Source of the DNA: Desulfatirhabdium butyrativorans DSM 18734
Lineage (GTDB): Bacteria > Desulfobacterota > Desulfobacteria > Desulfobacterales > Desulfatirhabdiaceae
Direction of reading: 5' to 3'
DNA length: 64,000 bases
Assembly (NCBI RefSeq): GCF_000429925.1
Contig: NZ_KE386985.1
Span: 183,225-247,224, forward strand
The first letter of the stretch is position 1. The number at the start of each line of letters is the position of its first letter. Positions 38,107 to 59,866 of this stretch are shown here, in pieces. The notes beneath the pieces are model-generated. The model had not been told where the DNA came from, made no database searches, and worked only from the letters and a program-made list of their open reading frames with translations. Position numbers and translations under genes: made by a program.

Positions 38107-39255
38107 TCAAGACGGAAGATCGGAAGGCGAGTCCGGCCCCGGATAAACCGGCACGGTGACGCTGAAGCACGATCCCATCCCTGGGGTGGAAGAAACATGG
38201 ATCGAGCCCCCGTGCTGGTGGACGATCTGCCGGGTGATGTACAGGCCAAGGCCGGTGCCTTTCTGACCTTTGGAAGAGAAAAAGAGGGTGAACAATTTGT
38301 CCCGGGTTTCCCGGTCCATGCCGCAGCCGTTGTCCGTAATTTCGAATCGGATGCCCTCTGCCACGGGCCGGATCACAAACCGCACCTCATGCCCCGTTTT
38401 CTGGGTGTCGCGCAGGCAGGCATCCACGGCATTGTCCAGAATATTCAACAATGCCGCATGCATGGCATTTTCGTCCATCGAAATCGTTTCTTGGCCTACA
38501 TCGAAATGGCGGATAAATGCGATGCCGTTATCCTCCATGCGCTTTTCCACCGACTGGGCCACGCGTTCCCCGAAATCGGCCAGCCGGACCAGTTGACGCT
38601 CCAGTTCCCGCTCCTTGGCGTAATACAGAATATCGAGCACCTGTTTGCGGATCCGTTCCGCACTCAGACTGACCGCCTTCCATCCTTCTTCGATCCGCTG
38701 ATCGTTCTTTCGCCTGAGCCCGGACTCCAGCATGTAAAGCCCGCCATCCAGGCCTGTCAGCATGCCTTTGATGCCGTGGGCGATCGAACCGATCATCAGT
38801 CCGAGGTTGGCAAGCCGATTCTGCAGCTCCGTCTTTTCCCGGATCAGCCGCTCCAGATTCTGGGTATATTCTGTCAGCAGGCGCTTGCTCCTGATTTTTT
38901 CGAAGACCTTCTGCAGGGCGATTTCCAGTACATCCACGTGAATGGGCTTGGTGATGAAGTCAGCCGCATGGTCCTTGAAACTGACGATGGCAAGCTCCAT
39001 GTCTCCATGCCCCGTGATCATGACAAATTCCGTATCCGGGCTCTCATGCTTGATCCGTCGCAGCAGTTCGATACCGTCCATTCCCGGCATCTTGATGTCG
39101 GAAACGACTACGGGCGGCCGTTGCGTCCGGAACACTTCCAGCGCTTCCTCGCCGTTCTGGGCCGTAAACACCTCATAGCCCATGTCCCGCAGGGAGATGT
39201 CGAGGACATCCCGGATGTCCGCCTCGTCATCGACGAGCAAAATCGATCGTTTCAT
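38107..39255 (-). CDS. REC-HisKA-HATPase: receiver with histidine kinase output
   Basis: 382 residues from the ATG at 39255, six bases after GGGAGAG. The receiver domain (1-120) has the DD pair in LLVDDEAD, the acceptor Asp in VVSDIKMPGMDG (about 52), Thr in MITGHG and Lys in FITKP. A dimerisation/phosphoacceptor helix has IAHGIKG with His near 168, and the ATPase domain has NILDNAVDACL, DNGCGMDRE and GTGLGLYITRQIV. There is no membrane segment. The gene overlaps the haem-type sensor kinase by 29 bp, so the two are made together and probably form one relay. Confidence 0.9.
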   Translation of the reverse strand: MKRSILLVDDEADIRDVLDISLRDMGYEVFTAQNGEEALEVFRTQRPPVVVSDIKMPGMDGIELLRRIKHESPDTEFVMITGHGDMELAIVSFKDHAADFITKPIHVDVLEIALQKVFEKIRSKRLLTEYTQNLERLIREKTELQNRLANLGLMIGSIAHGIKGMLTGLDGGLYMLESGLRRKNDQRIEEGWKAVSLSAERIRKQVLDILYYAKERELERQLVRLADFGERVAQSVEKRMEDNGIAFIRHFDVGQETISMDENAMHAALLNILDNAVDACLRDTQKTGHEVRFVIRPVAEGIRFEITDNGCGMDRETRDKLFTLFFSSKGQKGTGLGLYITRQIVHQHGGSIHVSSTPGMGSCFSVTVPVYPGPDSPSDLPS

Positions 39256-41527
39256 CGTCACTCTCCCGTACCGGAAAATTCAGGGTGAAGGTCGTTCCCT
39301 GCCCTGTTTCGGAGCGCACCTGAATCGTGCCCCCGCATTCCTTCACGATTCCGTAACTGATGGAAAGCCCGAGGCCCGTGCCTTTGCCCACTTCCTTGGT
39401 CGTGAAGAACGGCTCGAAGATTTTTTCCCGAATTTCCCTGGGGATTCCAATCCCGGTATCGCTGATTTCGGCCACAACCTGCTCCCCCTGGCGTTTGACA
39501 GAGATGGAAATGCGCTTGCCGTTGCCGCCGGTTTCATTCCCGGCCGTTTTGGCTTCGATCGCATCCCGTGCGTTCAGCAACAGGTTGATGAACACCTGTT
39601 CGAGCCGGCCCGGATCCCCTACGACGGTTGGCAGCTCCGGTTCCACGTTCCATTCAAGCGCAATGCCCCGCACTTTGAGCTGCTGGCTGAAAATATCCAC
39701 AGCCCGTTCGAGAACTTCGACGAGCTGGACCCGATCCAGGCAGGCGTCCGTTTTACGGGCGAATTGCCGCATGTGCACAATGATCCGGGTGGCCCGATCC
39801 ACATTCGCATCGATTTTCTGCAGCATGCTCCCCAGGATTTCCGGTTCCACCGGCTCAGCCCGGAATGCCTTCTTGATCAGGAAAGAGGCCGCCGTCTTGA
39901 TGACGGAAAGCGGCTGATTCAGCTCATGGGCCACACCTGTGGCCATTTCTCCGAGTGTGGCCATTTTGCTCGCCTGCAGAAACTGCTGCTCCGTTTCGAG
40001 CCGCTCCGTGATGTCGGATGTGGTCACCAGCAGCACCTGCTTTCCGGGATATTCGCAGGGTCGCAGCCAGATGTCAGCAAACAGAATCCTTCCCGATTGG
40101 TGGATTTGCCGCACCTTGTTGAGAACGGCGGCTCCCCCGAATCCGGCTTCGTATTTCGTTCGTTCGGACTGGGGGAAGAGATCGAGAAAGGAGCGCTTTT
40201 TCAGATCCGCAGGCAAGTATCCATACATGGCGGCAACGCTTTCGTTGCAGTCGAGAATGGTCCATTGATCCATTTCCAGGACGAACACGGGGTTTGGGAT
40301 GTTGTTGAAAATGGCGTGGTATTTTTTTTCGGATCGTTCGAGGCTTTCCTCGAGCTGTTTTCGGCGGGTAATGTCCAGGCAGACCTCCATGACCGCCACG
40401 ATCTCGCCCGATTCGTTTTTCACTGGGGAGGTTCTGGCTACCCAATGGGTGATGGAACCATCGGGATTCAGCCGACTCTCTTCCCCATAATGGGGTTGGC
40501 CGTCCTCAAAGGTCCGCTTCACCGGGCACGGATCACACAGGCTGTCGCGGCCTTTGTAGGCATGGAAGCAGGAATCACCGGTTCGGGCGTTGAAACGCTC
40601 CAGAAATTCCCGGTTGCACCGGATGAGGCGAAACGCCCGATCCTGGATGGTGATCAAACAGGGCACCAGTTCGAAGAGATTCTGGTATTCGTCCCGCTGT
40701 TTGTTGAGTTCCCGCTGCTGTTTGCCGATTTCCTCCTGCATCCAGGTGATGGCCTCCGCCAGAAGACCCATTTCATCCTGCTGGTTCACTTCGATCGGAT
40801 GATCGTAGCTTCCCATGCCGATGGCCTTGGTACCCCGGATCAGGGTGTCGATGGGCCGACTGACGAATTTCCGCATGAACATGAAGATCAGAGCGGATGT
40901 CACAAAGAACAAAAAGAAGGACAGAATCAGGATGCCGATTTTGTAATGGTTCATCTCGATGTCGGTGGCACCGAGGGACACCACGACATCGAGGGCGCCG
41001 AGGATGCGTTTGCCTTCCGGATGAATGTGGCAGGCATCGGTGGAGCAGCCCTTTTCGTTGTAGATCGGGGTGATGATGCCGAGGAGCCTGGCATCCTGGC
41101 CGTCAAAGATGCGCGTTCGCTCGGAAAGGGAGAGATCGACGGACGGCGGGTCGCTGTGATGGCAGATGTCACAGGCTTCGGCTTTGATGTTGGTGTAGGT
41201 GTTGACCTCCTGGCTCAGATTGGAAAACCGGATCTGACCGCTTTTGTTGTAAATGCGGATGTGTTCGATGCCCGGCTGTTTCCCGATGTTCTGGATGATC
41301 TGGGTGATGTCGTCCCGGGAATTGAGCATCATGGCGTAATGCGTTCCCAGCCGGATGGTATTTGTCAGCCGATCCGTGTTTGCAATGACATCTTCCATCA
41401 CCCGCTTCTGGGAATAGTTGATGTTGAAATAGGCCCAGATGGCCATCGAAGCGAGCAGGGTCGCTCCCACGATGATGGTGAGTTTCGCGAAAAGGCTCTT
41501 CTGGATGCGGTCGATCGGTGCGATCAT
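39227..41527 (-). CDS. Sensor histidine kinase with haem-type Cys-His motifs in periplasmic domain
   Basis: 766 residues. Membrane segments at about 12-34 and 197-217 enclose a periplasmic domain of 160 residues. This contains CDICH (C119, C122, H123), a classic CxxCH haem c motif, and CSTDACH (C161, C166, H167), a CX4CH variant. HAMP follows (218-270), then a PAS domain (about 280-385) with C320, C331 and C334 in [18 protein letters not shown], a second PAS domain (about 400-510), HisKA with His534 in [20 protein letters not shown], and an ATPase with [14 protein letters not shown] infer that it senses periplasmic redox state or a ligand such as oxygen or NO through covalently bound haem. 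It lies 160 bp downstream of hdrB on the same strand. Confidence 0.9.
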
Positions 41528-41610: not shown

Positions 41611-41667
41611 GGTTACGACTACGATTACGATTACGACAACGACAACGACAACGACAACGATAACGAT
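41611..41667. repeat. GATAAC/GACAAC hexamer array (inverted orientation)
   Basis: Nine hexamers (ACGATT, ACGACA, ACGATA) in the gap between hdrB and the sensor kinase. It is the reverse complement of the GTTATC/GTTGTC family. It lies inside what may be a transcription unit. Confidence 0.85.
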
Positions 41668-41687: not shown

Positions 41688-42542
41688 TCAAGCGATCATG
41701 AGCGGTTTCGAGAGGTTCAGCTCGAGTCCCAGTCGTCCGGGGGAGATTCCGGCCGCCAGTCCGATCAGTTGCGGAAGATACAGAATCGGGATGTCGATCC
41801 GATCTCCGGCAGTGGTTGGGGCGCTGTGCTGAAATGCCTCGAGATTGAGCTGGCACATGGGGCATACGGTGACAATGGCGTCAGCGCCTGCGGCGTCTTC
41901 CAGGATGCCGCCGATCATGATCAGCGCCGCATCGTGATGGGTGTTGATGTGGGAGGCCCCGCAGCAGGCGGTTGCCATGTGCCAGGGAAAAACCGACGCC
42001 CCAAGGGCCTGGATGATCGGCTCCATCGATGTGGGTGTTTCGGGATCGTCGAATACGGGATAGGGCCGAAGGCACTGGCAGCCATAGTAGGGAGCGATCC
42101 GGAGGCCGGAAAGCGGTTTGCGGACGATGGCGCCGATAGCAGTGGCGCCGATGTCGCGGCTCAGGATGTCGAGCAGGTGACGAACCCGAACCGTTCCGCT
42201 GAGATGCAGGCCATCGACTGCCAGCGCCTCGTTGAGCATGGGCAGGATATCCGGCCTGGTGCGGACGGTTTCCTCGACCCGCTTCAGGTTCAGGTAGCAG
42301 GCGCTGCAGGGCACGAGCATCGTCAGCGGTTTACCTGCCGCTTCGGCCAAGGCGAGATTGCGCGCCGGCAGAACCAGAGAAAGCAGGCGACTGGTGAAAT
42401 CCGCTGCGCTTGCGCCGCAACAGGTCCACCCTTCCAGTTCCTGGAGCTCGGCACCGAGCGCTTCCATGACGGCAAGGGTCGAGAGGTGGTATTCCCTGGC
42501 AGACCCTTCGAGCGAACATCCCGGATAATAGCGATAGTTCAT
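41688..42542 (-). CDS. hdrB: HdrB-like subunit (CCG domains)
   Basis: 284 residues with two cysteine-rich CCG domains. The first has YYPGCSLEGSAREYH, CCGAS and CSACYLNLKR; the second has YYGCQCLRP, ACCGASH and CPMCQLNLE. In methanogen HdrB these bind the non-cubane [4Fe-4S] clusters that reduce the heterodisulfide CoM-S-S-CoB. A bacterium without these coenzymes must use another disulfide or electron acceptor. It overlaps hdrC by four bases. Both CCG sites look intact. Confidence 0.93.
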   Translation of the reverse strand: MNYRYYPGCSLEGSAREYHLSTLAVMEALGAELQELEGWTCCGASAADFTSRLLSLVLPARNLALAEAAGKPLTMLVPCSACYLNLKRVEETVRTRPDILPMLNEALAVDGLHLSGTVRVRHLLDILSRDIGATAIGAIVRKPLSGLRIAPYYGCQCLRPYPVFDDPETPTSMEPIIQALGASVFPWHMATACCGASHINTHHDAALIMIGGILEDAAGADAIVTVCPMCQLNLEAFQHSAPTTAGDRIDIPILYLPQLIGLAAGISPGRLGLELNLSKPLMIA

Positions 42543-43084
42543 GATCGATTCTCCATTTCATCGACTTTCCGGAACAGGGCGCTCAAATCCTTCCGGTGTT
42601 TTGCGGAAGGTACAAACGAGAGTTTCCCCTTGCGGATCAGCCGAATGCCAAGCGATGCAAATCGAAATGGCAGCACCGGGTTTCCCATGGCCATGAAAAA
42701 ACCGCTCATCAGCTCCAGTTCATTCAGCCGGCCGTGTTTGCGCACACTGCTCAGGAAATGGCGATAGAACACCACGGATTCACTGCGTTCGAACCAACCC
42801 GATTGGCAGGCGAGGTTTTTCAAATCCGACATGGCTTCCGTGAGCGGCAGTCCCCTCGGGCAGCGAAGCGTGCATCGAAAACACTGCGAGCACAGGAAAA
42901 ACGTGCGGGACCGGAAGACTTCTTCCGTCAGGCCGGACAATACGAGCCGCCACAAATGCCTCGGCGTCAGGTCCATGGAAAAGGCATTCGGGCAGGAGCC
43001 TGTACAGGTGCCGCATTGCATGCATGCAGCCAGTTTTTCCTGAATGGATGAAAGCATGGTTTCTTTCGCTATTGTTGCATGCAT
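42539..43084 (-). CDS. hdrC: HdrC-like 4Fe-4S subunit
   Basis: 181 residues with two 4Fe-4S motifs: CMQCGTCTGSCPN (residues about 21-33) and CSQCFRCTLRCPRG (about 65-78), then a helical C-terminus. HdrC carries electrons between HdrA and the HdrB active site. The stop overlaps the hdrB start (ATGA). Upstream, a 796-bp gap separates it from the double HdrA gene; that gap is filled by the repeats below. Confidence 0.93.
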   Translation of the reverse strand: MHATIAKETMLSSIQEKLAACMQCGTCTGSCPNAFSMDLTPRHLWRLVLSGLTEEVFRSRTFFLCSQCFRCTLRCPRGLPLTEAMSDLKNLACQSGWFERSESVVFYRHFLSSVRKHGRLNELELMSGFFMAMGNPVLPFRFASLGIRLIRKGKLSFVPSAKHRKDLSALFRKVDEMENRS

Positions 43085-43802: not shown

Positions 43803-43885
43803 CCTCTCACCCATCACCCATTGCCCATAACCCATAGCCCATCACCCATCACCCATAGCCCATAGCCTATAGCCCATAGCCTATA
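43803..43885. repeat. CCCATAG/CCCATCA heptamer array running into hdrA stop
   Basis: About eleven CCCATxx heptamers (CCCATCA, CCCATAG, CCTATAG). On the minus strand the array begins inside the last two codons and stop of the double HdrA gene. It is the fourth heptamer array in the window that sits at a stop codon or within a few bases of one. Confidence 0.85.
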
Positions 43886-46800
43886 GCCCGCCATCGATGA
43901 TCTCAAACATCTGCTGCGCAAAAAGCCCCTCCACGACCGCAGCGTCGTTCGGACATACGGAGGCGCAGATGCCGCAGGCCCTGCAGGCAAGCGGGTCGAT
44001 GACGATCCGGTCGATATCCGGATCGAGGCTCCTGGCATGGAAGGGGCATGCCGCCACACACTGCTCGCACAGGCTGCAGATGCTGTGGCGGACGCTGGCC
44101 GTCTTTCGAACCTGGTCGAGCGGCCGCTGCGATGCCAGGAAAGGCAGCGCCTGAACGGCGCAGGCCTTTGCGCTCGCAATGGCCTCCGGGATGCTGGACG
44201 GTGCAAGACCTGCTCCCGCAACGAAAATCCCTTCCCGCTCCGTGCGGACCGGATGCCATTTGATATCGGCTTCCCGGATGAATCCATCCTCATCCCGACC
44301 GATTCCGAAAATTCCGCACAAGGCATCGTCCGCCGCTGGTACCATTCCCGCAGCCAGTATCACCCGATCCGCTTCGATTTCGATTTCGCGCCCGATAATC
44401 CGCTCGAAGCTGCGGACCAATACCCGGTCACCCGCCGGTTGAACCACCGGTTTCCGTTCCGGCTCGTAGGTCAGGAAAATCACCCCTGCCTTTCGGGCCT
44501 GGGTATAGACCTGCTCGATGGCACCGATGGCCATCATGTCCCGCACCAGCACATAGACATCGATGTCGGGTTTACGGGATTTGAGCGTCATGGCGTGCTT
44601 GAGCGATGTGGCGCAGCAGACCTTGCTGCAATAGTTTCGCGGCGAAAAACGCGTCCCGGCGCACTGGATCATGACAACCGTATCGATGCCGGAAAGATCG
44701 CAGGACGACTCGGCCAGAAAACGCTCGAACGCAAGCTGCGTCAGAATCCTGTCGTTGACCGGATATCCGCAGAGAGACGGATCGGTTTCCCGGATGCCGG
44801 TCGCCAGAATTACGGCTCCATATGTTTCTTCGATCACGCCGTTGTCCGACTGCTCCAGGACCGCCCGGAACCGGCCTGCCTGCCCTGTGCATGCCGCCAC
44901 CCGGGTTGTCGTTCGGCAGGTGATATTCGGCTGCTGGGTCACCGTATTGACGAGGCTGTCCCGCAATTCCCGAACCAAAGCCCCGTCGATTGTCCGATGG
45001 ATATCGTTGATACGGCCCCCGATCGTATCGCTTGCTTCGATGAGATCGACGGCAACGCCGAGCTGCGCGAGCGCGATGGCGGCGCTCATGCCGGCAACAC
45101 CAGCGCCGACAACCAGGGCTCGCGCGATTCCCGAAGGAAACCGCTGCAGCTCCGGTGTGATCCATTTGAGCCGGGCGATTCCCTTCAGGATTTCCCGAAG
45201 CACATCATCCGTTTCTTCCGCTGCCTGGGCGAGCCCCTTTTCCGACAGGCTCCGCAGAACCGGCGTGTGGATATCGACAACATCGATCAGAAGCGCCGGC
45301 AATTGATACGCTGCTGCCATCACACTGCGTACTTCCGATGGCATCTCGACAGGCCCCGTCCCGACCAGAAGGCGGTTGACGCCGGATGCCGCCGCTTCAC
45401 CCGCACCGGCCGGCAAACCGGCGGCTTCCCGGGAGCCGTCCTGCCATCGCACCCAGGCCACCTCGGGATTTCGTATCAGTCGGGCTTCGATGCTGGTCCT
45501 GTCCAGGGGCTGCAGGGATCGATCATCCCCGGAAAACAACAGAATACCGATTCGCGGCGGCTCCCGGCCGATGGCGGAGAGCCCGTCCGTTTTCCCCGGT
45601 TTTGCGGACGCGCCCGCATCTGCGGTATACCCAATGGCCCGAAGTGCCGCGTGCGCGGCAGCCGAGGCCAGCACCATGCTGTCCCGGATGGATTTCATGC
45701 CGCCGGCCGATCCGGCAACCACCACTCCTTTTCGATCCGTTTCGTTCCAGTCGAAGGGCCCGGTCAGGGGAAATCCCGATGCGTTCAGGGAAAAACCGAA
45801 CACCTTCGAGAGGTTTTCCATGTCTTCCGCAGGCCGCTGCCCGACGGCAAGCACCACCATATCCACTGCCTTTGCATGGGTAATCCCGCCATCGTCCACC
45901 CAGCGCAGCAGAATGTCATGGGTATCCGGATTGTTGCTGAGCGAATGCGCTCTTGCCCGAACCATCCGGACACCTGCGGCTTCGGCGGCTTCCCGGTAGT
46001 GCTGGCCGCTTTTTTCGGGAGTGCGCAGATCCATGTAAAAGATCGATGTTTCACAGGCATCTCCCAGCTTTTCCTTGGCCAGGACAGCCTCTTTGAGCGA
46101 GATCATGCAACAGACCGCCGAACAGAAATCGGCTTCCGACTGCAGATCCCGCGAGCCGACGCACTGCAGCCAGGCAATCTTTCGGACCGGCCGGCCGTCT
46201 TCGAGCCGGATGAGTTTCCCGCCTGTTGGACCTGTTCCGCTCATGATCCGTTCAAATTCGATGCTCGTCACCACACCTGGGATCAGGCCGTACCCGTAAG
46301 GATTTTTCCCGGGAGCCGGATCGAAGAGCGAGCAGCCGGAGCAGAGAACGACGGCTCCGGTTTCCAGATGGATATCCTGCATGGCGAGGATTTGTTGCGC
46401 CTGCTGCTCGACCTTCGGCAGGAGGGCTTCCGGATCGAAGGGTTTGATGAGGTAATCGAGTGCGCCCATTTTCAGCGCATCGACGGCTGTTTCCACCGTC
46501 GCGTAGGCGGTCATCATGATAACGACCAGATCCGGCAGGACTTCCCTGGCTTTTCGCAGTACCTCCACCCCATCCATCCCCGGCATCTTGATGTCGAGCA
46601 GCATCAGGTGATAGGGCTTCTGTCGGAGCATTTCCAGGGCTGCCGGGCCGGAGTCCGCCGTATCGACGGCAAAGCCGCCTTCTTCCTGCAGCCAGTCCCG
46701 CGTCGAATCCCGAACGATGGCCTCGTCGTCCACGACAAGGACCCGGAAATCCCCCCAGGCCGAACCCGGTAAATGAATGGCGCCGGCAGGGCAAACGTCG

Positions 46801-47318
46801 ATGCAGGCGCCGCAACGGGTACAGACGGCCGGATCGATGACGAAGCGGGCCGGCCAGGCATGCGGAAGGGGCGGATGGATGGCTTTTTTCTTGGACAGAC
46901 CGCAGTTGAACGCATCCGAAACCTCGATCGGACACACCTCGGCGCACAATCCGCAGCCCATGCAGGCAGATGGATCAACGGCAGGGGAGACTTGCCGCAA
47001 CCGGATTACAAATCCCTCTCCTTCGGCATTGGCTTCCAGAATCCGGGTGTTTTTGAGGACATCGATGTTTGGATGCGCCAGGCCCTTGCGCAGGCACTGC
47101 TGATCGGCCGTATCGGCAACGGTGTGCGGAAGGATGCGGCACATGCCGCATCCGTTGCTCGGAAACTGGTGATCCAGCATCGAAAGCCATCCGCCGGTTG
47201 CACCCTGTTTTTCGACGAGGGTGATGCTGCATCCGGCATTTGCCAGATCCAGCGCGGCGCGCATGCCTGCAATCCCGCCGCCGATCACCAAAACCCGTTG
47301 GGTAGACTGTTTTGCCAT
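43881..47318 (-). CDS. hdrA: Double HdrA-like flavoprotein with an inserted response-regulator receiver domain
   Basis: 1145 residues. Module 1 has the FAD motif VIGGGIAG (11-18) and two 4Fe-4S sets (C119-C129, C166-C176). A complete receiver domain then sits at about 191-312: DD at 197-198, acceptor Asp242 in LLDIKMPGMDG, Thr270, Lys292. After it the HdrA flavin domain resumes (TGPTGGK 362-368, LQCVGSR 385-390). Module 2 has a second FAD motif VVGAGVAG (736-743), an IQCAGTR motif, and two C-terminal 4Fe-4S sets (C1081-C1091, C1112-C1122). HdrA carries the flavin that bifurcates electrons between low- and high-potential acceptors. A receiver inside it suggests phosphorylation-controlled activity. 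The stop codon lies in a heptamer array; gaps of 29 bp upstream and 796 bp downstream separate it from its neighbours. Confidence 0.92.
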   Translation of the reverse strand: MAKQSTQRVLVIGGGIAGMRAALDLANAGCSITLVEKQGATGGWLSMLDHQFPSNGCGMCRILPHTVADTADQQCLRKGLAHPNIDVLKNTRILEANAEGEGFVIRLRQVSPAVDPSACMGCGLCAEVCPIEVSDAFNCGLSKKKAIHPPLPHAWPARFVIDPAVCTRCGACIDVCPAGAIHLPGSAWGDFRVLVVDDEAIVRDSTRDWLQEEGGFAVDTADSGPAALEMLRQKPYHLMLLDIKMPGMDGVEVLRKAREVLPDLVVIMMTAYATVETAVDALKMGALDYLIKPFDPEALLPKVEQQAQQILAMQDIHLETGAVVLCSGCSLFDPAPGKNPYGYGLIPGVVTSIEFERIMSGTGPTGGKLIRLEDGRPVRKIAWLQCVGSRDLQSEADFCSAVCCMISLKEAVLAKEKLGDACETSIFYMDLRTPEKSGQHYREAAEAAGVRMVRARAHSLSNNPDTHDILLRWVDDGGITHAKAVDMVVLAVGQRPAEDMENLSKVFGFSLNASGFPLTGPFDWNETDRKGVVVAGSAGGMKSIRDSMVLASAAAHAALRAIGYTADAGASAKPGKTDGLSAIGREPPRIGILLFSGDDRSLQPLDRTSIEARLIRNPEVAWVRWQDGSREAAGLPAGAGEAAASGVNRLLVGTGPVEMPSEVRSVMAAAYQLPALLIDVVDIHTPVLRSLSEKGLAQAAEETDDVLREILKGIARLKWITPELQRFPSGIARALVVGAGVAGMSAAIALAQLGVAVDLIEASDTIGGRINDIHRTIDGALVRELRDSLVNTVTQQPNITCRTTTRVAACTGQAGRFRAVLEQSDNGVIEETYGAVILATGIRETDPSLCGYPVNDRILTQLAFERFLAESSCDLSGIDTVVMIQCAGTRFSPRNYCSKVCCATSLKHAMTLKSRKPDIDVYVLVRDMMAIGAIEQVYTQARKAGVIFLTYEPERKPVVQPAGDRVLVRSFERIIGREIEIEADRVILAAGMVPAADDALCGIFGIGRDEDGFIREADIKWHPVRTEREGIFVAGAGLAPSSIPEAIASAKACAVQALPFLASQRPLDQVRKTASVRHSICSLCEQCVAACPFHARSLDPDIDRIVIDPLACRACGICASVCPNDAAVVEGLFAQQMFEIIDGGL

Positions 47319-47347: not shown

Positions 47348-48487
47348 TTATCCAACGACCTCCGGAAACTCACTGGTTTCGAAGACCGTCATTGGCGGCG
47401 GCTCATCGATGCTGCGGCCGGAGAAATATCCGAACGCCTGCTGGCTTCCTGCTGCAATGGTGCAGAAGAGCTCCGTCACCCCGATATCGTTCGGGCAGGC
47501 ATTGGAGCACTGGCCGCAGCCCACACATCCTGTGCTCATGTGGACAAGGCGTGTCAGATGAAAGAACAGCACATCCCGCGGCAGGCGGATGGCGCCGCTT
47601 TTCCGGCTCCAGTTCCGGTATTGCAGCGGCTCGTGGTCGAAGACATCCGTCATGAAGACGCACTCCCGGCAATAGCAGATGGGACAGGCGACGCGGCAGT
47701 TGGTGCACAGGACGCAATTGCTGAAATAAGCCGCCAGTTTTTCCGGAGAATCCACGGCCGCCCTGGTTTTTTCGAACATTGCATCCCGGAAGGCGATGCG
47801 GCGATCCCGAATGTCTGAAACGACGACGTTCCGTTTTTCACAGACTTCCATCCCGGCGTTTTCGAGATGCAATCGCTCCAAAAATCTTCGTCCCTTTTCG
47901 GTTCGGGCTTCGACCGGAAGAAAACCGCTTTCCCAGGCGAATGTGCCGAGCGCGATATCCGCTGCATCCGGCGTGAAGGCGGTACACGCCTGGCAGGCCG
48001 AAGCCAGTGAGAGCCCTTCCGGAAACCGGAGCTCATCCGCCTGGATCGCCTGGCAAAACGCTTCGGCCGGATCACCGGAAACAGTTCCGGAAAACGTTTG
48101 ATAATCCCTGTTGGAGAAAGCTCCCCCGCAATCCATGCCCACCAGGATCACTTCTTCGAGGCTTCCCTGATGCAGCTTCGCCCGTTCGATGGCGGCCCGG
48201 ATTTCGCAGGGCCTGAGACATGCGACCAGAAAGGCGCCTGTCGGTTTTCGGGCAAGCTTGCTCAGGAGTTGCGCCGCATTGAGTGGAAAGCAGGGCGAAA
48301 CGGGATCGATCGCTTCGATTCGCTCCGGATCGGAAACCATGCCCGGCATGATCATCCGCGCTCCGGGTGTGCGAAGCGGCGCCATGACGGCATCGACATC
48401 GTCAAGAGCGAGCAGCAGCCGCAACAGGTTGCGCACGGCGCCTGGAACATTTCCTTTCTCCAACGGAAGTTTTCGGATCATTTCCAT
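47348..48487 (-). CDS. FrhB/FdhB-like Fe-S flavoprotein
   Basis: 379 residues from the ATG at 48487; the frame is open upstream but this start follows a GGGGGAAAAG. It shares the layout of F420-hydrogenase/formate dehydrogenase beta subunits: GAFLVACLRPCEIRAAIERAK and VGMDCGG in the N-terminal half, FSNCVLCTNCRVACPICYC near 255, and a ferredoxin motif CVGCGQCSNACPNDIG near 320. Such subunits bind FAD and Fe-S and move electrons to or from a soluble carrier. In this cluster it probably delivers electrons to or from HdrA. The carrier (F420, ferredoxin or other) cannot be told. Confidence 0.85.
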   Translation of the reverse strand: MEMIRKLPLEKGNVPGAVRNLLRLLLALDDVDAVMAPLRTPGARMIMPGMVSDPERIEAIDPVSPCFPLNAAQLLSKLARKPTGAFLVACLRPCEIRAAIERAKLHQGSLEEVILVGMDCGGAFSNRDYQTFSGTVSGDPAEAFCQAIQADELRFPEGLSLASACQACTAFTPDAADIALGTFAWESGFLPVEARTEKGRRFLERLHLENAGMEVCEKRNVVVSDIRDRRIAFRDAMFEKTRAAVDSPEKLAAYFSNCVLCTNCRVACPICYCRECVFMTDVFDHEPLQYRNWSRKSGAIRLPRDVLFFHLTRLVHMSTGCVGCGQCSNACPNDIGVTELFCTIAAGSQQAFGYFSGRSIDEPPPMTVFETSEFPEVVG

Positions 48488-48509
48488 CTTTTCCCCCTTT
48501 TTGGGAACA

Positions 48510-48932
48510 TTAGAATCCCACAACGTTCCGCATACCGGTCGGCCCGAGTTCCCGCACCTGACGGGTGATGTTGTGCATGATTTCAACGAATCGGATGCCG
48601 TCGCTCGCTCCGATCCAGGTCAGCCGGAGCCGGTTGCGGTCAAATCCGAAACGCGGCAGGATTTCCTGCAGCAGTTTCATCCGCCTTCTGGCCTTGAAAT
48701 TGCCGTTGATGTAATGGCAATCCCCCGGATGACATCCGCTGACCAGAACGGCATCGGCTCCCTCCAGCAGCGCCTTGATCACGTATTGCGGATCTACCAT
48801 TCCGGTGCACATCACCCGGATCAGGCGGATGTTTTTCGGATATTCGAGCCGGGATGTCCCCGCCAGGTCGGCAGCGGTATAGGTGCACCAGTTGCAGACG
48901 AACGCCACGATGGTTGGTTCATAGATTTCCAT
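48510..48932 (-). CDS. mvhD: MvhD/FlpD-like 2Fe-2S subunit
   Basis: 140 residues from the ATG at 48932, seven bases after GGAAG. FVCNWCTYTAADLAG and RVMCTGMVDPQYV, then SGCHPGDCHYINGN, are the cysteine signatures of MvhD, the small subunit that links HdrA with a partner oxidoreductase. It lies 22 bp before the FrhB-like gene, which fits a functional pair. Its upstream gap of 434 bp is filled by the MITE-like element, separating it from the HdrA-GltD gene. Confidence 0.92.
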   Translation of the reverse strand: MEIYEPTIVAFVCNWCTYTAADLAGTSRLEYPKNIRLIRVMCTGMVDPQYVIKALLEGADAVLVSGCHPGDCHYINGNFKARRRMKLLQEILPRFGFDRNRLRLTWIGASDGIRFVEIMHNITRQVRELGPTGMRNVVGF

Positions 48933-48967
48933 GACCGCTTCCTTTCGTTCAGAAGATACTTTTGATG

Positions 48968-49328
48968 GACTCGTAAAAAGTCGGGGACTCTCTCTTGACC
49001 CGCGGGAGGGCGGGTGAATTTTGCTCAGCATCGGAAAAACGCTGCAGCCCGATCTCGTAGAATCGGGCGGATGGTCAAAACCACAATGATGGTTTGCTGT
49101 AATACAACAGATTGTTTTTCAAGGGAAAATACCTGAAGCTCGTCCGCCCGATCCAACGATTTCCGGCTGCTTCAAACAGTTTCTTCTGCTTCGCAAAACA
49201 TCACCCGCCCTCCCGCTGGAGGTCAGGCATCGAAGAAAGATTGGCGGATGGCGAAATTTTTCGAAGCCATCAAAATTCACCCGCCCCCTGCGGGTCAGAA
49301 GAGATACCCTGACTTTTTAGGACTTCGT
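48968..49328. mobile_element. MITE-like element, copy 1
   Basis: About 360 bp with imperfect terminal inverted repeats: GACTCGTAAAAAGTCGGGGA at the left and, inverted, AAGTCCTAAAAAGTCAGGG at the right. No coding capacity. The interior has GCTCAGCATCGGAAAAACGC, a hairpin around GATCTCGTAGAATCGGG, TTGCTGTAATACAACAG, and CCGCCCGATCCAACGAT. A second copy in inverted orientation is at 53774-54078. The 434-bp gap between mvhD and hdrA-GltD holds nothing else. Confidence 0.8.
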
Positions 49329-49366: not shown

Positions 49367-52300
49367 CTATAGCGTATCGCCCATGACGCTCATCAATCCA
49401 TCGAATTCCGAAAAAACCTGCCGTTTCATGAAGTGACGCACCTGTGCCGCGCCGCTCGGGCAGATGCCCGCGCAACTGCCACAGCCTTTGCACAGGGCAT
49501 CGTTCACCACGGATACTTTCCTTCTGAAATCAAATTCGATGGCCGAATAGGGACAGAGGGCGATGCACATCTGGCATCCGGCGCATACATCCGGATCGAT
49601 CCAGGAGATGACCGACGGAACGGTGACTTCCCCCTTGGCTGCCAGGGACAAGGCCTTCGCGGCAGCCCCGGAGGCCTGGGCGACGGTATCCGGAATGTCT
49701 TTGGGTGACTGGCAGGCACCCGCCAGGAAAACGCCGTCGGTTGCCGTGTTGAGCGGGCCAAGCTTCGGATGTTCTTCCAGAAAGAAGCCATCCGCATCGA
49801 GGTTCACACCGAAAATCCTGCCGATGGTTGCCGCATCGGCCCTGGCCTCCATCGCCACGCAGAGAATCACCATGTCGACCGGCACCCGGAGCAGCTTGCC
49901 GATCAATGTATCTTCGGCGATGGCGACGAGTTTACCCTTTTCGTTCGGCGAGCGGGCATGATCGGTGATTTCGGCCACTTTTCCCCGGATGAACTGTGTT
50001 CCCTCCTGTTGGCACCTGCGATAGAACGCCTCATATCCCTGGCCGAAGCAGCGCATGTCGATGTAAAAATCGTAAACCCGGGTGGCATGCCCCACTTTTT
50101 CCTTGATCAGATGCGTGTATTTGAGCGCAGCCATACAGCAGACGCGCGAACAGTAGGCATGTGCCCGCTCATCCCGGCTGCCGATGCAGTGCAGGATCGC
50201 CACACTTTCGGGCGGATCGCAGAAAGCGCCCGTTGCATCGCGCATCCGGATCCGGCCTCCGGTGGGCCCCGTGGCATTGCAGAGCCGCTCGAATTCGAGG
50301 CTGGTCATCACATTGGGATAGCGGCCGTAACCGTATGCCTTCATGGAGGTTGGGTTCCAGACGTCGTATCCGGTGGCCAGGATGATCGTTCCGACGGAAA
50401 ATTCCGTTTCGACGGGCTGCATGCCGTGATCGATGGCCTTGGCTTCACATGCCGAAACGCAGGCCATGCATTCGCAGCAGCCGCCGCAGTTCAGGCACCG
50501 GGCGGCCTCGTTTTCGGCCTGGGTTTCATTGAGTCCCGCGGACACTTCATCGAAATGCCGGATCCGCTCCTGCGGGACAACAAGCCGGGGCTCTTCCCTT
50601 GGCTGAACGGCTGCGGATTTCGGGATATTTTTCCATTGTTTTCCTTCATAATCGCGTTCCGCAGGTGCTGCATCCAGGTTTTTTTCCTGCAGGAGCATAT
50701 CGATGGCCATTGCTGCACGGTGCCCTGCCGCTACGGCCTCCACCACGGTAGCCGGTCCGCTTGCCGCATCACCTGCTGCAAACACCCCGGGAACGCTCGT
50801 CTGGAAGGTTGCCGGATCGACATCGATCGTTCCCCGCCTGTTTCGCCGCGGCCATTGCTCAGGCGATTCGCCCGCCGGTGTCCATTCTTCCGTATCCACA
50901 GCCTGCCCGATGGCTGCGATCACCTGGTCACAGGCCAGAATGAACTCGCTGTTTTCAACGATTTCAGGGCGTCTTCTTCCGTCAGGCCCGGGGTTGCCCA
51001 GCCGGGTGCGCACACAGGCGATGCCGGTGAGCCGCCCGCTTTCCGCTACGATGCGCAGCGGCGCCGTCAGGAATTCGAAGCCGATGCCTTCTTCGCGGGC
51101 CTCCCCGATTTCATCCCGGTAGGCGGGCATTTCCGCTTCGGTCCGCCGGTAGACGATGGTGGCCGAAGCCGCGCCAAGTCGTCTGGCCACCCGTACGGCA
51201 TCGATCGCGACGTTTCCGCCGCCGACCACCGCAACCCGGGCGCCTGCAAATTCGGAATGACTGTTACGATCCAGGTGGATATCGCGCAGGAAGCGCACGG
51301 CATCGATGACGCCATCGGTTGCATCCTCTCCTTCGATATGCATTTTCAACCCGCTGTGCGCCCCGATCCCCAGGAATACAGCGTCATACCCCTGGCTTTT
51401 CAATTCCTTCAGGTCGAAATCCTTACCCAGACGCATCCCGGTTTTCACCTCGATCCCCAGATTCAGAATCGCGTCGATTTCGGCGCCGAGCACATCCGGC
51501 GGGAGCCGATAATCCGGAATGCCTACCCGCAGCATGCCGCCCAGAACGGGAAGCGCCTCAAAAATCGTGATCCTGTAACCTTTGCGTCTCAAATCGTCGG
51601 CCACCGTCAAACCGGCAGGTCCCGATCCGATGATGGCCACCCGTTGCGGTTTCTCTTCGATCGGTGCTGGCGCCATTTCCGCCAACCGGATTTGATCCGC
51701 AGCGAACCGCTTGAGCTCCCGGATCGATACGGGACTGTCCACTTCCTGTCTTCTGCAGGCGGACTCGCAGGGATGGGGACAGACCCGGCCCAGCACGCCT
51801 GGCAGCGGCAGCCGTTCGCGGATGATTCTGTAGGCATCGCCGTACCGCTTTTCCCGGATCATCTGGACATATCCCTGGACGTTGACATGAGCCGGGCAGG
51901 CGCCGACACAGGGAGCGCGATCCGCCTTGTCGATGCAGAACGTGATGGGAACGGCCTGTGGAAAGGCACGGTAAATGGCATGCCGGTTGCCGAGGCGTTC
52001 ATCCCATTCACTCGGCATCGATACGGGACAGACCTTGGCGCACTCCCCGCATCCTGTGCAGATGCCTTCCCGCACATAACGGGGATGTTTGCGGACGGTG
52101 ACGGTGTAATTGCCGATATAGCCTTTGAGTCCCACCACTTCGCTGTAGGAGAAAAGTTTGATTTGGGGGTGCTGTACGACCTCGACCATCTTGGGGGTGC
52201 CGATGCAGGCGGCGCAATCGAGGGTCGGGAAGGTCTTGTCGAACTGCAGCATGTGTCCGCCGATAGTCGTCGATTTTTCGACGAGATAAACGGTGTGGCC

Positions 52301-52789
52301 CGAATTGGCGATGTCGATGGCCGCCTGCATTCCGGCGATGCCTCCGCCGACAACCAGCACATCCGGATGTACCGGAACCTGCCGCGTTTCGAGCTCCCGG
52401 TGGTGAAGGATCCGATGGACCGCCGCGGCCACCAGGGTCTTGGCCTTGGCGGTGGCCTGGTCCGGATTCCGGGTTACCCAGGAAACCTGCTCCCGGATGG
52501 AGGCCATCTGGAACAGATAGGGATTGATTCCGGCCCTTCTGCATGCTCCCTGGAAGGTTTTTTCATGCAACCTGGGCGAGCAACTGGCCACCACCACCCG
52601 GTTCAGGCCGTATTGCCGGATATCCTTTTCGATCATGTCCTGACCGGGATCGGAGCACATGAACCGGTAATCCCGGGCGATCACCACATGGTCCAGTCGC
52701 TGGGCGAAGGCGGAAACTTCCGATACCCGCACCTTGCCTGCGATGTTGATGCCGCAATGGCAGATATAGACACCGATTCGGGCGTTCAT
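49367..52789 (-). CDS. hdrA: HdrA with inserted GltD-like NAD(P)H/FAD module
   Basis: 1140 residues from the ATG at 52789, after AAGGAAAG. It opens with MNARIGVYICHCG, then an HdrA FAD motif VVGGGIAG (147-153), a CxxxCIGTP motif and a 4Fe-4S set (C244-C254). From about 286 to 760 a glutamate-synthase small-subunit (GltD/NfnB-type) domain is inserted: CVGACPAHVNVQGYVQMI, RVCPHPCESACRRQ, IIGSGPAGLTVADDL (386-400), GRVAVVGGGNVAIDA region near 521-530 and IDVDPATFQTSVPGVFAAGD. HdrA then resumes with CLNCGGCCECMAC, HCIGSRDE and two C-terminal 4Fe-4S sets (C1069-C1079, C1100-C1110). The insertion is a plausible NAD(P)H entry point for bifurcation. It overlaps the response regulator gene by four bases. 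Confidence 0.93.
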   Translation of the reverse strand: MNARIGVYICHCGINIAGKVRVSEVSAFAQRLDHVVIARDYRFMCSDPGQDMIEKDIRQYGLNRVVVASCSPRLHEKTFQGACRRAGINPYLFQMASIREQVSWVTRNPDQATAKAKTLVAAAVHRILHHRELETRQVPVHPDVLVVGGGIAGMQAAIDIANSGHTVYLVEKSTTIGGHMLQFDKTFPTLDCAACIGTPKMVEVVQHPQIKLFSYSEVVGLKGYIGNYTVTVRKHPRYVREGICTGCGECAKVCPVSMPSEWDERLGNRHAIYRAFPQAVPITFCIDKADRAPCVGACPAHVNVQGYVQMIREKRYGDAYRIIRERLPLPGVLGRVCPHPCESACRRQEVDSPVSIRELKRFAADQIRLAEMAPAPIEEKPQRVAIIGSGPAGLTVADDLRRKGYRITIFEALPVLGGMLRVGIPDYRLPPDVLGAEIDAILNLGIEVKTGMRLGKDFDLKELKSQGYDAVFLGIGAHSGLKMHIEGEDATDGVIDAVRFLRDIHLDRNSHSEFAGARVAVVGGGNVAIDAVRVARRLGAASATIVYRRTEAEMPAYRDEIGEAREEGIGFEFLTAPLRIVAESGRLTGIACVRTRLGNPGPDGRRRPEIVENSEFILACDQVIAAIGQAVDTEEWTPAGESPEQWPRRNRRGTIDVDPATFQTSVPGVFAAGDAASGPATVVEAVAAGHRAAMAIDMLLQEKNLDAAPAERDYEGKQWKNIPKSAAVQPREEPRLVVPQERIRHFDEVSAGLNETQAENEAARCLNCGGCCECMACVSACEAKAIDHGMQPVETEFSVGTIILATGYDVWNPTSMKAYGYGRYPNVMTSLEFERLCNATGPTGGRIRMRDATGAFCDPPESVAILHCIGSRDERAHAYCSRVCCMAALKYTHLIKEKVGHATRVYDFYIDMRCFGQGYEAFYRRCQQEGTQFIRGKVAEITDHARSPNEKGKLVAIAEDTLIGKLLRVPVDMVILCVAMEARADAATIGRIFGVNLDADGFFLEEHPKLGPLNTATDGVFLAGACQSPKDIPDTVAQASGAAAKALSLAAKGEVTVPSVISWIDPDVCAGCQMCIALCPYSAIEFDFRRKVSVVNDALCKGCGSCAGICPSGAAQVRHFMKRQVFSEFDGLMSVMGDTL

Positions 52790-53208
52790 GAGGCTTTCCT
52801 TTCCGGAATCAGGGATTGGATACAATCGATCAATTCGTGGGCTTCGACGGGCTTTTCGAAATAGGCCAGGGGAGGCGGCAGGGAGTGGCCGCTTTTAGGA
52901 CAGACAAACTGATGGTAAGAGAAGAACAGGTCGCGGTCGATGGCGGAAACGAGAATGACCGGGATGTCATTCAACGCCGGATCGCCGCACAATTGACGAT
53001 ACAGGTGCATGCCTTCATCGTCGGGCATCATCAGATCGAGAATGAGGCAGTCCGGCCGGCGGCTCCGGCACAGATCGATACAAACCACCCGGCTTTCAAT
53101 GCCGACGACTTCGATATGTCTCGTCTTGAGCACATTGGCGACGAAGGTCAGGAAATGGGGATCGTCGTGCACAAGGAAGATGATGGGATAATTGCCTTTC
53201 GGATTCAT
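52786..53208 (-). CDS. Stand-alone receiver-domain response regulator
   Basis: 140 residues from the ATG at 53208 (AAGGTG six bases upstream). Receiver only: DD in FLVHDDPHF, acceptor Asp in LILDLMMPDDEG (about 61), Ser in LVSAID, Lys in YFEKPV. Two cysteines lie near the acceptor region. With no output domain, it must act by protein contact or as a phosphate sink. It is the first gene of the Hdr locus and overlaps hdrA-GltD by four bases, so its signal is tied to this redox complex. Confidence 0.9.
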   Translation of the reverse strand: MNPKGNYPIIFLVHDDPHFLTFVANVLKTRHIEVVGIESRVVCIDLCRSRRPDCLILDLMMPDDEGMHLYRQLCGDPALNDIPVILVSAIDRDLFFSYHQFVCPKSGHSLPPPLAYFEKPVEAHELIDCIQSLIPERKAS

Positions 53209-53400
53209 GCCCCACACCTTGAATGAGTTGAGGAGTTTGCCTTGACCCGTTCAGGAACTGCGTATATGGTGTATGCCGCAGCGATGAAGGATGCGGCGCG
53301 GGTTGCCATGAAATTACCATCGAACGAGGAAAGGGACGGATACGAAGCCGCCGGAAAGGCGTTGGGATCGAACATGCAAATTCATCTGGTTTTCGAATAG

Positions 53401-56417: not shown

Positions 56418-58172
56418 TCACGTTTCCCTGCGAATGCCGATGCCCAGCTTCTTCATCCGGCGCCAGAGGGTGGTGCGATTGAGGCCCATTGTCGCCGCGC
56501 TTTTGCTGACGTTCCATCCGTTTTGCCGAAGGATCGCGATCAGTTCCTCGCCATCTGCGCCGGCGCCTTTATCTCCGGGAGTCTGCTGGATGGCAGGGGC
56601 TTCATCGGTTCGGCCTGCCTTGAGATATTCCGGAAGGTGCTCCGGAGAAATGGTTTCCTCCTCGCTCAGGATCACGGCGTGTTCCAGAATGTTCTCCAGT
56701 TCCCGGACGTTTCCCGGGTATCCGTAGTTCAGCAGAATATCCATGGCTTTGGCGGCAATGGATTTTTCCGATTTCTGGTTCTGCGCGCAGAGCCTCTTCA
56801 GGATGGAGCGGATGAGGATGGGTAAATCCGAAGGCCGCCGCCGCAGGGGAGGCATTTCGATCCGGAGCACATTGAGTCTGTAAAACAGGTCTTCGCGGAA
56901 TTGGGCGTTCCGAACCATTTCGGCCAGATTGCGGTTGGTTGCGGAGATGATCCGCACATCGACCCTGACCGGATTGCGTGATCCAAGCGGGTAAAAATCC
57001 TGATCTTCCAGCACCCGCAGGAGTTTTGCCTGCAGGGAGAGCGGCAGATCGCCGATTTCATCCAGAAACAGGGTTCCGCCGTCCGCATCCTGAAATCGGC
57101 CGGGTTTGGATCGATCCGCCCCTGTGAAGGCGCCCCGCTCGTAGCCGAACATTTCCGATTCCAGCAGGGTATCGGGCATGGCGGCGCAATTGACCTTGAT
57201 GAAGGGTCGATGCGCCCGTCTGCTCGCGCCATGGATGATCTTGGCGAGCAAATCTTTTCCGGTTCCCGTCTCGCCGGCAATCAGCACCGTGGCATCGCTG
57301 GTCGCAACCACCCGGGCCAGATGAAACACTTGCTGCATGACGGCGTCTTTTCCGATCATGTCGTAAAACGTGTAGCTGTCCTGGACGGCGTTTTGAAGTG
57401 CTTCGATCACCGAGAGGTCATCGAATGTCGCCAGGCCGCCGACGATGGCCCCCTTTTCGTTGCGAAGCGCCATGTAGGTTGCCCGAATGGGGATGCGCTC
57501 CCCCGATGTGATGCGCATTCTGCCTTTGGGATTGCCCAGGGTCTTTCCTTGCCCGATGGCTTCCTGGAGAAGCAGAAAATCTCCGGCATGAGATGTCGGA
57601 TCCAGAAGTTTCGAGCAGGGGTTCCCCAGAATTTCCTCCCGCCGAAATCCGGTCATTTTCTCCGCCCGGGGATTGATGAATGTGATATGGCCGCCGCGAT
57701 TCACCGTAAAAATGCCGATATCGAGATTTTCGAGGATCATCTTCAGGCTTCTTTCCTCGTGATGGACCCGGTTGATCAGATCGGAGATGGGGCTTTGGTC
57801 CTGAAGAATCGTCAGGCATCCCGCGAGCCGGCTTTCCGTATCATAAATCGGCATGGCCAGACGGGTGATCAATCGATGCGAGGCCGGATCCACTATCGGG
57901 CTTTCATCCTCCGCCATCGCTTCCCAGCCGCTTTCCTGCTTGAAAATGCACTGAACCATGCAGGGAATGCCGACAAACACCTCGCGGCAATCCTGGCCGA
58001 GATATTCATTTTCCCGAAAGCCCATCAGTGTCTGGGCCACGCAATTCATGGCGGAAACCTTGCGGTGGATATCCACCGTGAAAGCGCCGATGCTGAGCTC
58101 ATCGAGCGCCTGCAGCAGGACATCCGTGGAGACGCTGCCGATGGTGCCGAGTGCCGATGCCACTTCGTTCAT
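56418..58172 (-). CDS. PAS-type sigma-54 transcriptional activator
   Basis: 584 residues from the ATG at 58172, seven bases after AAGGAGG. Two PAS domains (about 15-140 and 143-260, GIFTVNRGGHITFINPRAEKM) replace a receiver. The AAA+ sigma-54 domain has Walker A AGETGTGKDLLAK, the sigma-54-contacting loop ERGAFTGADR, and LFLDEIGDL. A Fis-type helix-turn-helix is at the end (VSKSAATMGLNRTTLWRRMKKLG). It binds enhancer sites and drives sigma-54 promoters in response to a PAS-sensed signal. The upstream gene is a REC-PAS kinase, so the pair could be functionally linked although this protein has no receiver. A sigma-54 promoter candidate lies at 53401-53416. Confidence 0.93.
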   Translation of the reverse strand: MNEVASALGTIGSVSTDVLLQALDELSIGAFTVDIHRKVSAMNCVAQTLMGFRENEYLGQDCREVFVGIPCMVQCIFKQESGWEAMAEDESPIVDPASHRLITRLAMPIYDTESRLAGCLTILQDQSPISDLINRVHHEERSLKMILENLDIGIFTVNRGGHITFINPRAEKMTGFRREEILGNPCSKLLDPTSHAGDFLLLQEAIGQGKTLGNPKGRMRITSGERIPIRATYMALRNEKGAIVGGLATFDDLSVIEALQNAVQDSYTFYDMIGKDAVMQQVFHLARVVATSDATVLIAGETGTGKDLLAKIIHGASRRAHRPFIKVNCAAMPDTLLESEMFGYERGAFTGADRSKPGRFQDADGGTLFLDEIGDLPLSLQAKLLRVLEDQDFYPLGSRNPVRVDVRIISATNRNLAEMVRNAQFREDLFYRLNVLRIEMPPLRRRPSDLPILIRSILKRLCAQNQKSEKSIAAKAMDILLNYGYPGNVRELENILEHAVILSEEETISPEHLPEYLKAGRTDEAPAIQQTPGDKGAGADGEELIAILRQNGWNVSKSAATMGLNRTTLWRRMKKLGIGIRRET

Positions 58173-58245
58173 TTTCGGCCTCCTTGGGTGCATCGAAAAA
58201 CAGTCCTCCTGCCCTTAGCCCCTCACGCTCTTGCGGTTTACGGCC

Positions 58246-59808: not shown

Positions 59809-59866
59809 GCCACCTCCCTGGCTTCCGTTCATGCCTGCCCTTGACCGACGGTGTGAACATTCTTAC

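Follow-up and report, generated by a model that had tools for sequence, protein, structure and literature searches.

Can an electron-bifurcating enzyme be switched directly by phosphorylation? To our knowledge, little is settled about how cells start, stop or reverse flavin-based electron bifurcation. In the window, by which we mean the whole stretch of 64,000 nucleotides analysed here, an uninterrupted reading frame of 1145 amino acids with an ATG start (43881..47318; this and all other features of the window given with coordinates below lie on the reverse strand) encodes a protein that we call HdrA-REC. The first-pass annotation had described it as an HdrA with a complete response-regulator receiver domain in its flavin module and knew of no published example; our search of open-licence literature likewise turned up neither a receiver-containing HdrA nor a bifurcating enzyme under two-component control.

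What kind of HdrA is this? The protein has matches to both HdrA and receiver domains, and its AlphaFold2 model, computed with 60 natural sequences in the alignment (pLDDT 86.6, pTM 0.88), finds HdrA chains, 8rvu and 5odc among them, as its top Foldseek matches in the PDB. The best NCBIfam matches, to the HdrA2 and HdrA models, fall in four separate stretches and all score below the cut-offs, as expected because the protein is rearranged. It is built of two FAD modules. The first comprises residues 1-182 and 313-560: its first part (residues 7-110; 46989..47300) contains GxGxxG and Cys57, Cys60 and Cys75, the inserted ferredoxin domain (residues 117-179; 46782..46970) holds two 4Fe-4S sets with eight invariant Cys, and the second part (residues 313-560; 45639..46382) contains E356, K409 and Cys386, Cys399, Cys403 and Cys404, invariant in 60/60 aligned sequences. 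The second module (residues 731-1143) consists of an FAD domain (residues 731-1065; 44124..45128), recognised by domain matches and by alignment to 5odc, and a C-terminal ferredoxin domain (residues 1075-1128; 43935..44096), recognised by domain matches and its invariant Cys, with a further two 4Fe-4S sets; the two ferredoxin domains thus have two clusters each and 16 invariant Cys. The N-terminus lacks the HdrA N-terminal domain, and a domain of HdrA-N type lies between the halves, at approximately residues 587-720 (45159..45560). E356 and K409 (M. thermolithotrophicus numbering) are the literature markers of bifurcating HdrA and stabilise FAD; they bear the same numbers here as in 5odc, and their half-2 counterparts, E865 and K907, both present in the window protein, are found in 50 and 53 of the 60 sequences, respectively. 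These features support the assignment of HdrA-REC, predicted from its sequence, to the HdrA-family flavoproteins of bifurcation type. The original identification as HdrA is supported; it had taken the protein for a single HdrA, however, and the protein is a tandem one.

Two thioredoxin reductase-type FAD domains are the mark of type II HdrA, described for archaea (PMC12054007), and both such domains of HdrA-REC have GxGxxG. HdrA-REC resembles type II HdrA and the fused HdrA 3/4 of ANME (PMC9012536) in having two FAD halves, ferredoxin domains and E356/K409 in half 1, and also in that the Cys197-type ligand and the HdrA-N domain are complementary across the halves. In contrast to both, its halves are swapped, half 1 carrying the Cys197-type region (Cys57/Cys60) without an N-terminal domain; and, compared with type II HdrA, it has a receiver, and its HdrA-N-type domain stands in mid-protein and not at the start. 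Pfam detects no GltD domain, the type III feature, in HdrA-REC, although the neighbouring protein (49367..52825) has one.

Is the receiver a genuine and complete domain? It occupies residues 191-312 (46383..46748) and interrupts the first FAD module directly behind the inserted ferredoxin domain. PF00072 (Response_reg) matches residues 193-303 with E=1.1e-30 over 110 of 111 model positions, so that the receiver signature originally read in residues 191-312, in one frame, proved right in all the residues named. In the PDB alignment to 5odc_A, residues 6-182, 316-474 and 961-1143 of HdrA-REC correspond to 143-309, 317-474 and 464-648, in agreement with the proposed location between the second 4Fe-4S set and the rest of the flavin domain; because the first two of these stretches flank the receiver, it replaces, by alignment, the short loop that links the inserted ferredoxin domain to the remaining FAD domain. 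An AlphaFold structure, which the first-pass annotation had suggested as a check, displays a full (beta-alpha)5 receiver at 192-311, in which D242, T270 and K292 end beta3, beta4 and beta5, and the last helix, alpha5 (296-311), continues straight into the FAD-domain strand 313-320; the connection to the inserted ferredoxin domain is a short linker. Wherever a relative has a working receiver, its active site aligns with D197 and D198, D242, T270 and K292, and this D-D-D-T-K set is intact in 60/60 receivers scorable at all five sites, a degenerate clade excluded; Asp242, the predicted phospho-acceptor (46593..46595), is D in all aligned receivers, the degenerate ones included. No other domain of the protein is conserved as well as the receiver: mean pairwise identity is 66% in the receiver, 52-63% in the HdrA domains that bind cofactors and 30% in the middle domain. 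The acid pair, the phospho-Asp, the Thr/Ser, the Lys and the modelled (beta-alpha)5 fold together support a receiver that is predicted to be competent for phosphorylation, and it is highly likely that it is phosphorylated in vivo.

How widespread is this fusion, and how might it have arisen? A search for HdrA containing PF00072, also suggested in the first-pass annotation, recovered the same junction in dozens of independent genomes. Relatives of HdrA-REC, with matches stronger than those of any paralogue, occur in 141/389 genomes of the order, representing 68/150 genera, and in 18/395 genomes of a phylum-wide sample, the tallies of genomes taking in a few receiver-less relatives and fragments. 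Within the family, three of seven other genomes have HdrA-REC, the sets searched containing no second genome of the genus, and the named records comprise Desulfobacterales MAGs plus a small number of others. A tree was computed from the HdrA part and rooted on seven paralogues; three outgroup rows from wrong-frame reading frames (OG_L002, OG_L007 and OG_L044) were excluded. A receiver-less family (f93; L155-L157) branches first, and the rest descend from a receiver-bearing ancestor with an SH-aLRT of 99. Among these descendants, L158 and L159 have cleanly lost the receiver, leaving a short linker, while their sister L167 still has it; one family (L160-L162) has a decayed receiver with an altered acid pair and Thr/Lys. 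Two state changes, one gain and one clean loss, are enough to explain the presence and absence of the receiver on the tree, which indicates a single insertion of an NtrC-like receiver, in Desulfobacterota. One further candidate, L068, whose match spans ferredoxin and receiver, was rejected as a fusion, because its neighbourhood encodes a ferredoxin-type protein and, as a gene of its own, an NtrC-like regulator.

The gene encoding HdrA-REC lies in a conserved operon. In the window this begins with a stand-alone receiver (52786..53217), assigned by domain match, followed by an HdrA with an inserted GltD (NAD(P)H) domain of the type III or HdrL kind (49367..52825), an MvhD/FlpD-type electron-transfer subunit (48510..49031; PF02662, E=1.3e-52) and an FrhB/FdhB-type subunit (47348..48586; PF04432), whose listed start overlaps MvhD and whose true start is probably further in. 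Downstream of HdrA-REC are HdrC (42539..43084; TIGR03290), HdrB with two CCG domains (41688..42542; domain matches), a sensor histidine kinase (39227..41527) and, as the final gene of the conserved set, a hybrid receiver-histidine kinase (38107..39261; domain match). Almost all complete loci keep the order HdrA-GltD, MvhD, FrhB, HdrA-REC, HdrC, HdrB, sensor kinase and receiver-kinase, and the small receiver often precedes HdrA-GltD; a few loci lack HdrC and HdrB and have a 772-aa CCG/Fer4 HdrD-like protein upstream instead. Among the three receivers of the operon, conservation is strictest in that of HdrA, and the small stand-alone one is often without its phospho-Asp, its active site being degenerate in many relatives. 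Domain matches in the compared loci revealed no receiver-DNA-binding regulator within the operon; upstream of it in the window lie a PAS sigma-54 activator without a receiver and a receiver-PAS-kinase. A link to a BamE-type benzoyl-CoA reductase was considered and found no support.

Which signal might reach the receiver? The sensor kinase has a periplasmic Cache-like domain, a HAMP domain, two PAS domains, HisKA and HATPase. Its sensor domain contains the heme motif C119-x2-CH (41159..41173), conserved in 40/40 full-length orthologues, and a second, heme-like motif, C161-x4-CH (41027..41047), in which the spacing is x3 in some relatives and the Cys-Cys-His is conserved in 40/40; one of the PAS domains has four invariant Cys among the full-length orthologues. 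A sequence-profile search of the sensor against the PDB returned nothing, and PF21563 appeared only below its cut-off, in one relative; the predicted fold is that of a Cache domain, with structure-search matches to WalK, GSU0935 and GSU0582 (3b42 and 3b47, E<0.001). The kinase thus combines a periplasmic Cache fold with CxxCH, as do the c-heme Cache sensors GSU0582 and GSU0935 (PMC3460858, PMC12889525), and heme binding is predicted from the motif; unlike those proteins, it has a second conserved Cys-Cys-His and is a histidine kinase encoded beside hdr genes. The heme motifs suggest what the signal may be.

The presence of histidine kinases as conserved operon neighbours strengthens the inference of phospho-control. 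When only loci with at least 6.5 kb of downstream sequence were counted, an orthologue of the sensor kinase was found in 39 of the 48 whose receiver is intact and in none of the 7 whose receiver is absent or degenerate (Fisher 6e-5, uncorrected for kinship). A kinship-corrected test of this association was not significant, and because it draws on only two or three independent contrasts, the association supports coupling without proving it. Nine receiver-positive loci with enough sequence, L167 among them, have no nearby kinase. Moreover, the kinase may have another target, since the kinase/receiver-kinase pair is also found apart from hdr genes, in the window genome as well, where a paralogue of the kinase (53% identical) lies between Usp/Fer4/receiver-kinase genes and shikimate-pathway genes; this paralogue blurs the genome-level co-occurrence of the kinase and HdrA-REC. 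Taking these observations together, we think it probable, with some reserve, that the receiver is phosphorylated by the neighbouring kinases.

How would phosphorylation act on the enzyme? We favour, with moderate confidence, a model in which the receiver genuinely accepts phosphate and thereby lets a redox-sensing kinase gate the FAD/ferredoxin branch of the first half. HdrA-REC would be the HdrA subunit of a soluble electron-bifurcating or confurcating complex composed of HdrA-GltD, MvhD, FrhB, HdrA-REC, HdrC and HdrB. The c-heme/PAS sensor kinase, alone or via the receiver-kinase, would phosphorylate Asp242 in response to the periplasmic or cytoplasmic redox state, sensed by its heme and PAS domains. 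In HdrA structures, low-potential electrons exit to ferredoxin via the inserted ferredoxin domain (PMC9012536), and a comparable argument has been made that ferredoxin could be blocked by a GltD inserted close to this domain (PMC12054007). Because the receiver is joined to both the inserted ferredoxin domain and the FAD domain, a shift in domain position upon phosphorylation would act on this exit, opening or closing the ferredoxin branch by altering ferredoxin docking or the distance from FAD to cluster. The reaction so controlled would probably be an exchange among ferredoxin, NAD(P)H (through the GltD protein) and, by way of HdrBC, a disulfide carrier, which as a guess is DsrC. On balance, a direct effect of receiver phosphorylation on electron flow seems somewhat more likely than not, which suggests that an energy-conserving enzyme may be under direct phospho-control, rather than control via gene expression, in many sulfate-reducing bacteria. 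More tentatively, it is possible that bifurcation is the direct output of this two-component system, the kinase reading how reduced or oxidised the respiratory chain is and, by phosphorylating the receiver of HdrA, setting the exchange of NAD(P)H, ferredoxin and disulfide carrier (perhaps DsrC) within seconds and without transcription. It should be noted that a single predicted conformation of HdrA-REC cannot reveal movements that depend on phosphorylation.

Other explanations of the inserted receiver must be weighed against gating of the ferredoxin branch. That the fusion is an assembly chimera or a chance in-frame event might be supposed from the draft state of the window genome (73 contigs), but its recurrence in dozens of unrelated assemblies, complete single-contig genomes included, reduces this to a negligible probability. 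An inert relic or structural spacer would be in keeping with the clean loss in L158 and L159 and the decay in L160-L162; relics do not, however, keep the highest conservation of all domains in a protein, nor, at protein identities as low as ~40%, a catalytic set that is intact in all 60 other receivers that can be scored, and we regard this reading as very unlikely.

Two further readings grant the receiver a function. It might govern assembly or the choice of partners, HdrBC or the HdrD-like protein, or the docking of MvhD or FrhB, and not bifurcation itself; receivers often act by switching protein contacts, and the partners do vary, as the loci with the HdrD-like protein in place of HdrBC attest. 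The insertion, however, adjoins the ferredoxin exit and no known contact with HdrB/C or MvhD, as judged from HdrA structures (PMC9012536), and we consider this explanation rather unlikely. Alternatively, information might flow in reverse: the HdrA complex would then sense redox conditions in the cytoplasm, its electron load would alter phosphate exchange at the receiver, and it would feed the kinase/receiver-kinase network and not be governed by it. The number of signalling proteins in the operon, the PAS sigma-54 activator and receiver-PAS-kinase upstream, and a window copy that has given up one cluster yet kept its receiver best of all would fit such a sensor. Receivers are usually inputs to the enzymes to which they are fused, though, and because E356/K409 and most cluster Cys are invariant, HdrA-REC appears still to be selected as an enzyme; reversed flow is therefore unlikely, slightly more so than a role in partner choice.

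Gating of the ferredoxin branch by the receiver can also be set beside known domain fusions. HdrA proteins with inserted domains are already on record (PMC12054007, PMC2702500); the accessible text of the archaeal survey of 28 classes (PMC12054007) reports no receiver in HdrA and nowhere uses the word "receiver". Type III HdrA and HdrL resemble HdrA-REC in having a foreign domain right behind the inserted ferredoxin domain, and a type III-like HdrA with a GltD insertion is itself the operon neighbour of HdrA-REC. GltD is, however, a module for NAD(P)H and provides an additional entry for electrons, whereas the receiver is cofactor-free and can only be regulatory. There may thus be an evolutionary plug-in site where the inserted ferredoxin domain ends, able to take up either GltD as a new electron entry or the receiver as a regulator. 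Fusions of receivers to metabolic enzymes, thioredoxin reductase among them, are already known (PMC5847659); that with thioredoxin reductase likewise joins a receiver to an enzyme of the flavin disulfide-reductase fold, but it is reported there only as a domain combination, whereas in HdrA-REC the receiver interrupts the FAD fold itself, in a multi-cluster enzyme of bifurcation type. A predicted phospho-switch beside the ferredoxin exit of HdrA, present in nearly half of the genera sampled from a major order of sulfate reducers, makes the control of bifurcation directly testable, and a two-component system with bifurcation as its output would, if real, constitute a lineage-wide regulatory layer in the energy metabolism of Desulfobacterales.

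The window copy has its own peculiarities. It differs at 30/259 strongly conserved positions, forms the longest branch in the HdrA tree, and is 66% identical to its relatives in the receiver, 41-53% in the HdrA domains and 23% in the middle domain. Where 93-97% of relatives carry Cys, the middle domain has F595, G597, R630 and G655; it aligns in register despite the loss of these four ligand Cys, and with them of the N-terminal-type 4Fe-4S site. Cluster domains differ between HdrA classes (PMC12054007, PMC9012536), and the N-terminal-type 4Fe-4S domain, which varies within type II, is not strictly defining. The electron path of the window protein may be altered.

A closely similar arrangement very probably exists in Desulfobacterium autotrophicum HRM2: the L167 locus, which has an HdrL-like protein, MvhD, an FdhB-like protein, HdrA, HdrC and HdrB, appears to match the HdrA4 locus VIII of that organism (PMC2702500), although the main text of that paper, to the extent available, makes no mention of a receiver in HdrA4. 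From this gene order, the receiver-HdrA of L167 is probably the published hdrA4, and a culturable host of HdrA-REC very probably exists. The window copy is atypical, and a typical member of the group would be better suited to experiments.

How do the insertions in the two HdrA proteins of the operon compare? Adjoining HdrA-REC, the tandem HdrA with an inserted receiver domain, is a type III or HdrL-like HdrA (49367-52825, minus strand), and because its inserted GltD-type NAD(P)H domain lies at the place corresponding to the receiver position in HdrA-REC, both proteins carry an extra domain, either within the inserted ferredoxin domain or following it. The middle HdrA-N-type cluster domain of HdrA-REC (45159-45560, minus strand) lacks all four cluster cysteines in the window copy; 93-97% of the relatives keep them. 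No sign of a frameshift was found within this domain, which aligns to the relatives in register.

In three loci (L160, L161 and L162, all from a single outside family), the same place in HdrA holds a degenerate pseudo-receiver, in which the acid pair reads DP or TP, the threonine is changed to alanine and, in two of the three, the lysine to histidine. No orthologue of the c-heme kinase was found near the HdrA of any of them. In L158 and L159, near relatives of the genome matching Desulfobacterium autotrophicum (locus L167, which keeps its receiver), the receiver has been cleanly lost and a short linker is left; the adjacent kinase pair is absent from L158, L159 and L167 alike.

The sensor kinase of the operon (39227-41527, minus strand) combines a Cache-like periplasmic domain, which holds CxxCH and C-x3/4-CH motifs, with a PAS domain whose four invariant cysteines (C290, C320, C331 and C334) possibly make it a cluster-binding PAS. 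Between its gene and hdrB lies an imperfect short tandem repeat of period 6/18 (41613-41667). A paralogous c-heme kinase and receiver-kinase pair is encoded elsewhere in the window genome (locus L195, G000:C13, 6701-10167, minus strand), distant from hdr genes and beside genes for a Usp protein, a Fer4_8 protein and another receiver-kinase. In D. multivorans, a similar regulator set has been reported by its Hmc complex (PMC5109826).

Upstream of the operon are genes for a PAS sigma-54 activator (56418-58193, minus strand) and a receiver-PAS-histidine kinase (58246-59832, minus strand), which may control its transcription; many relatives also have comparable genes ahead of the operon. In the window genome (L010, L014, L015, L017 and L018), several HdrA paralogue matches continue across an in-frame TGA, which suggests that these are selenocysteine HdrA proteins.
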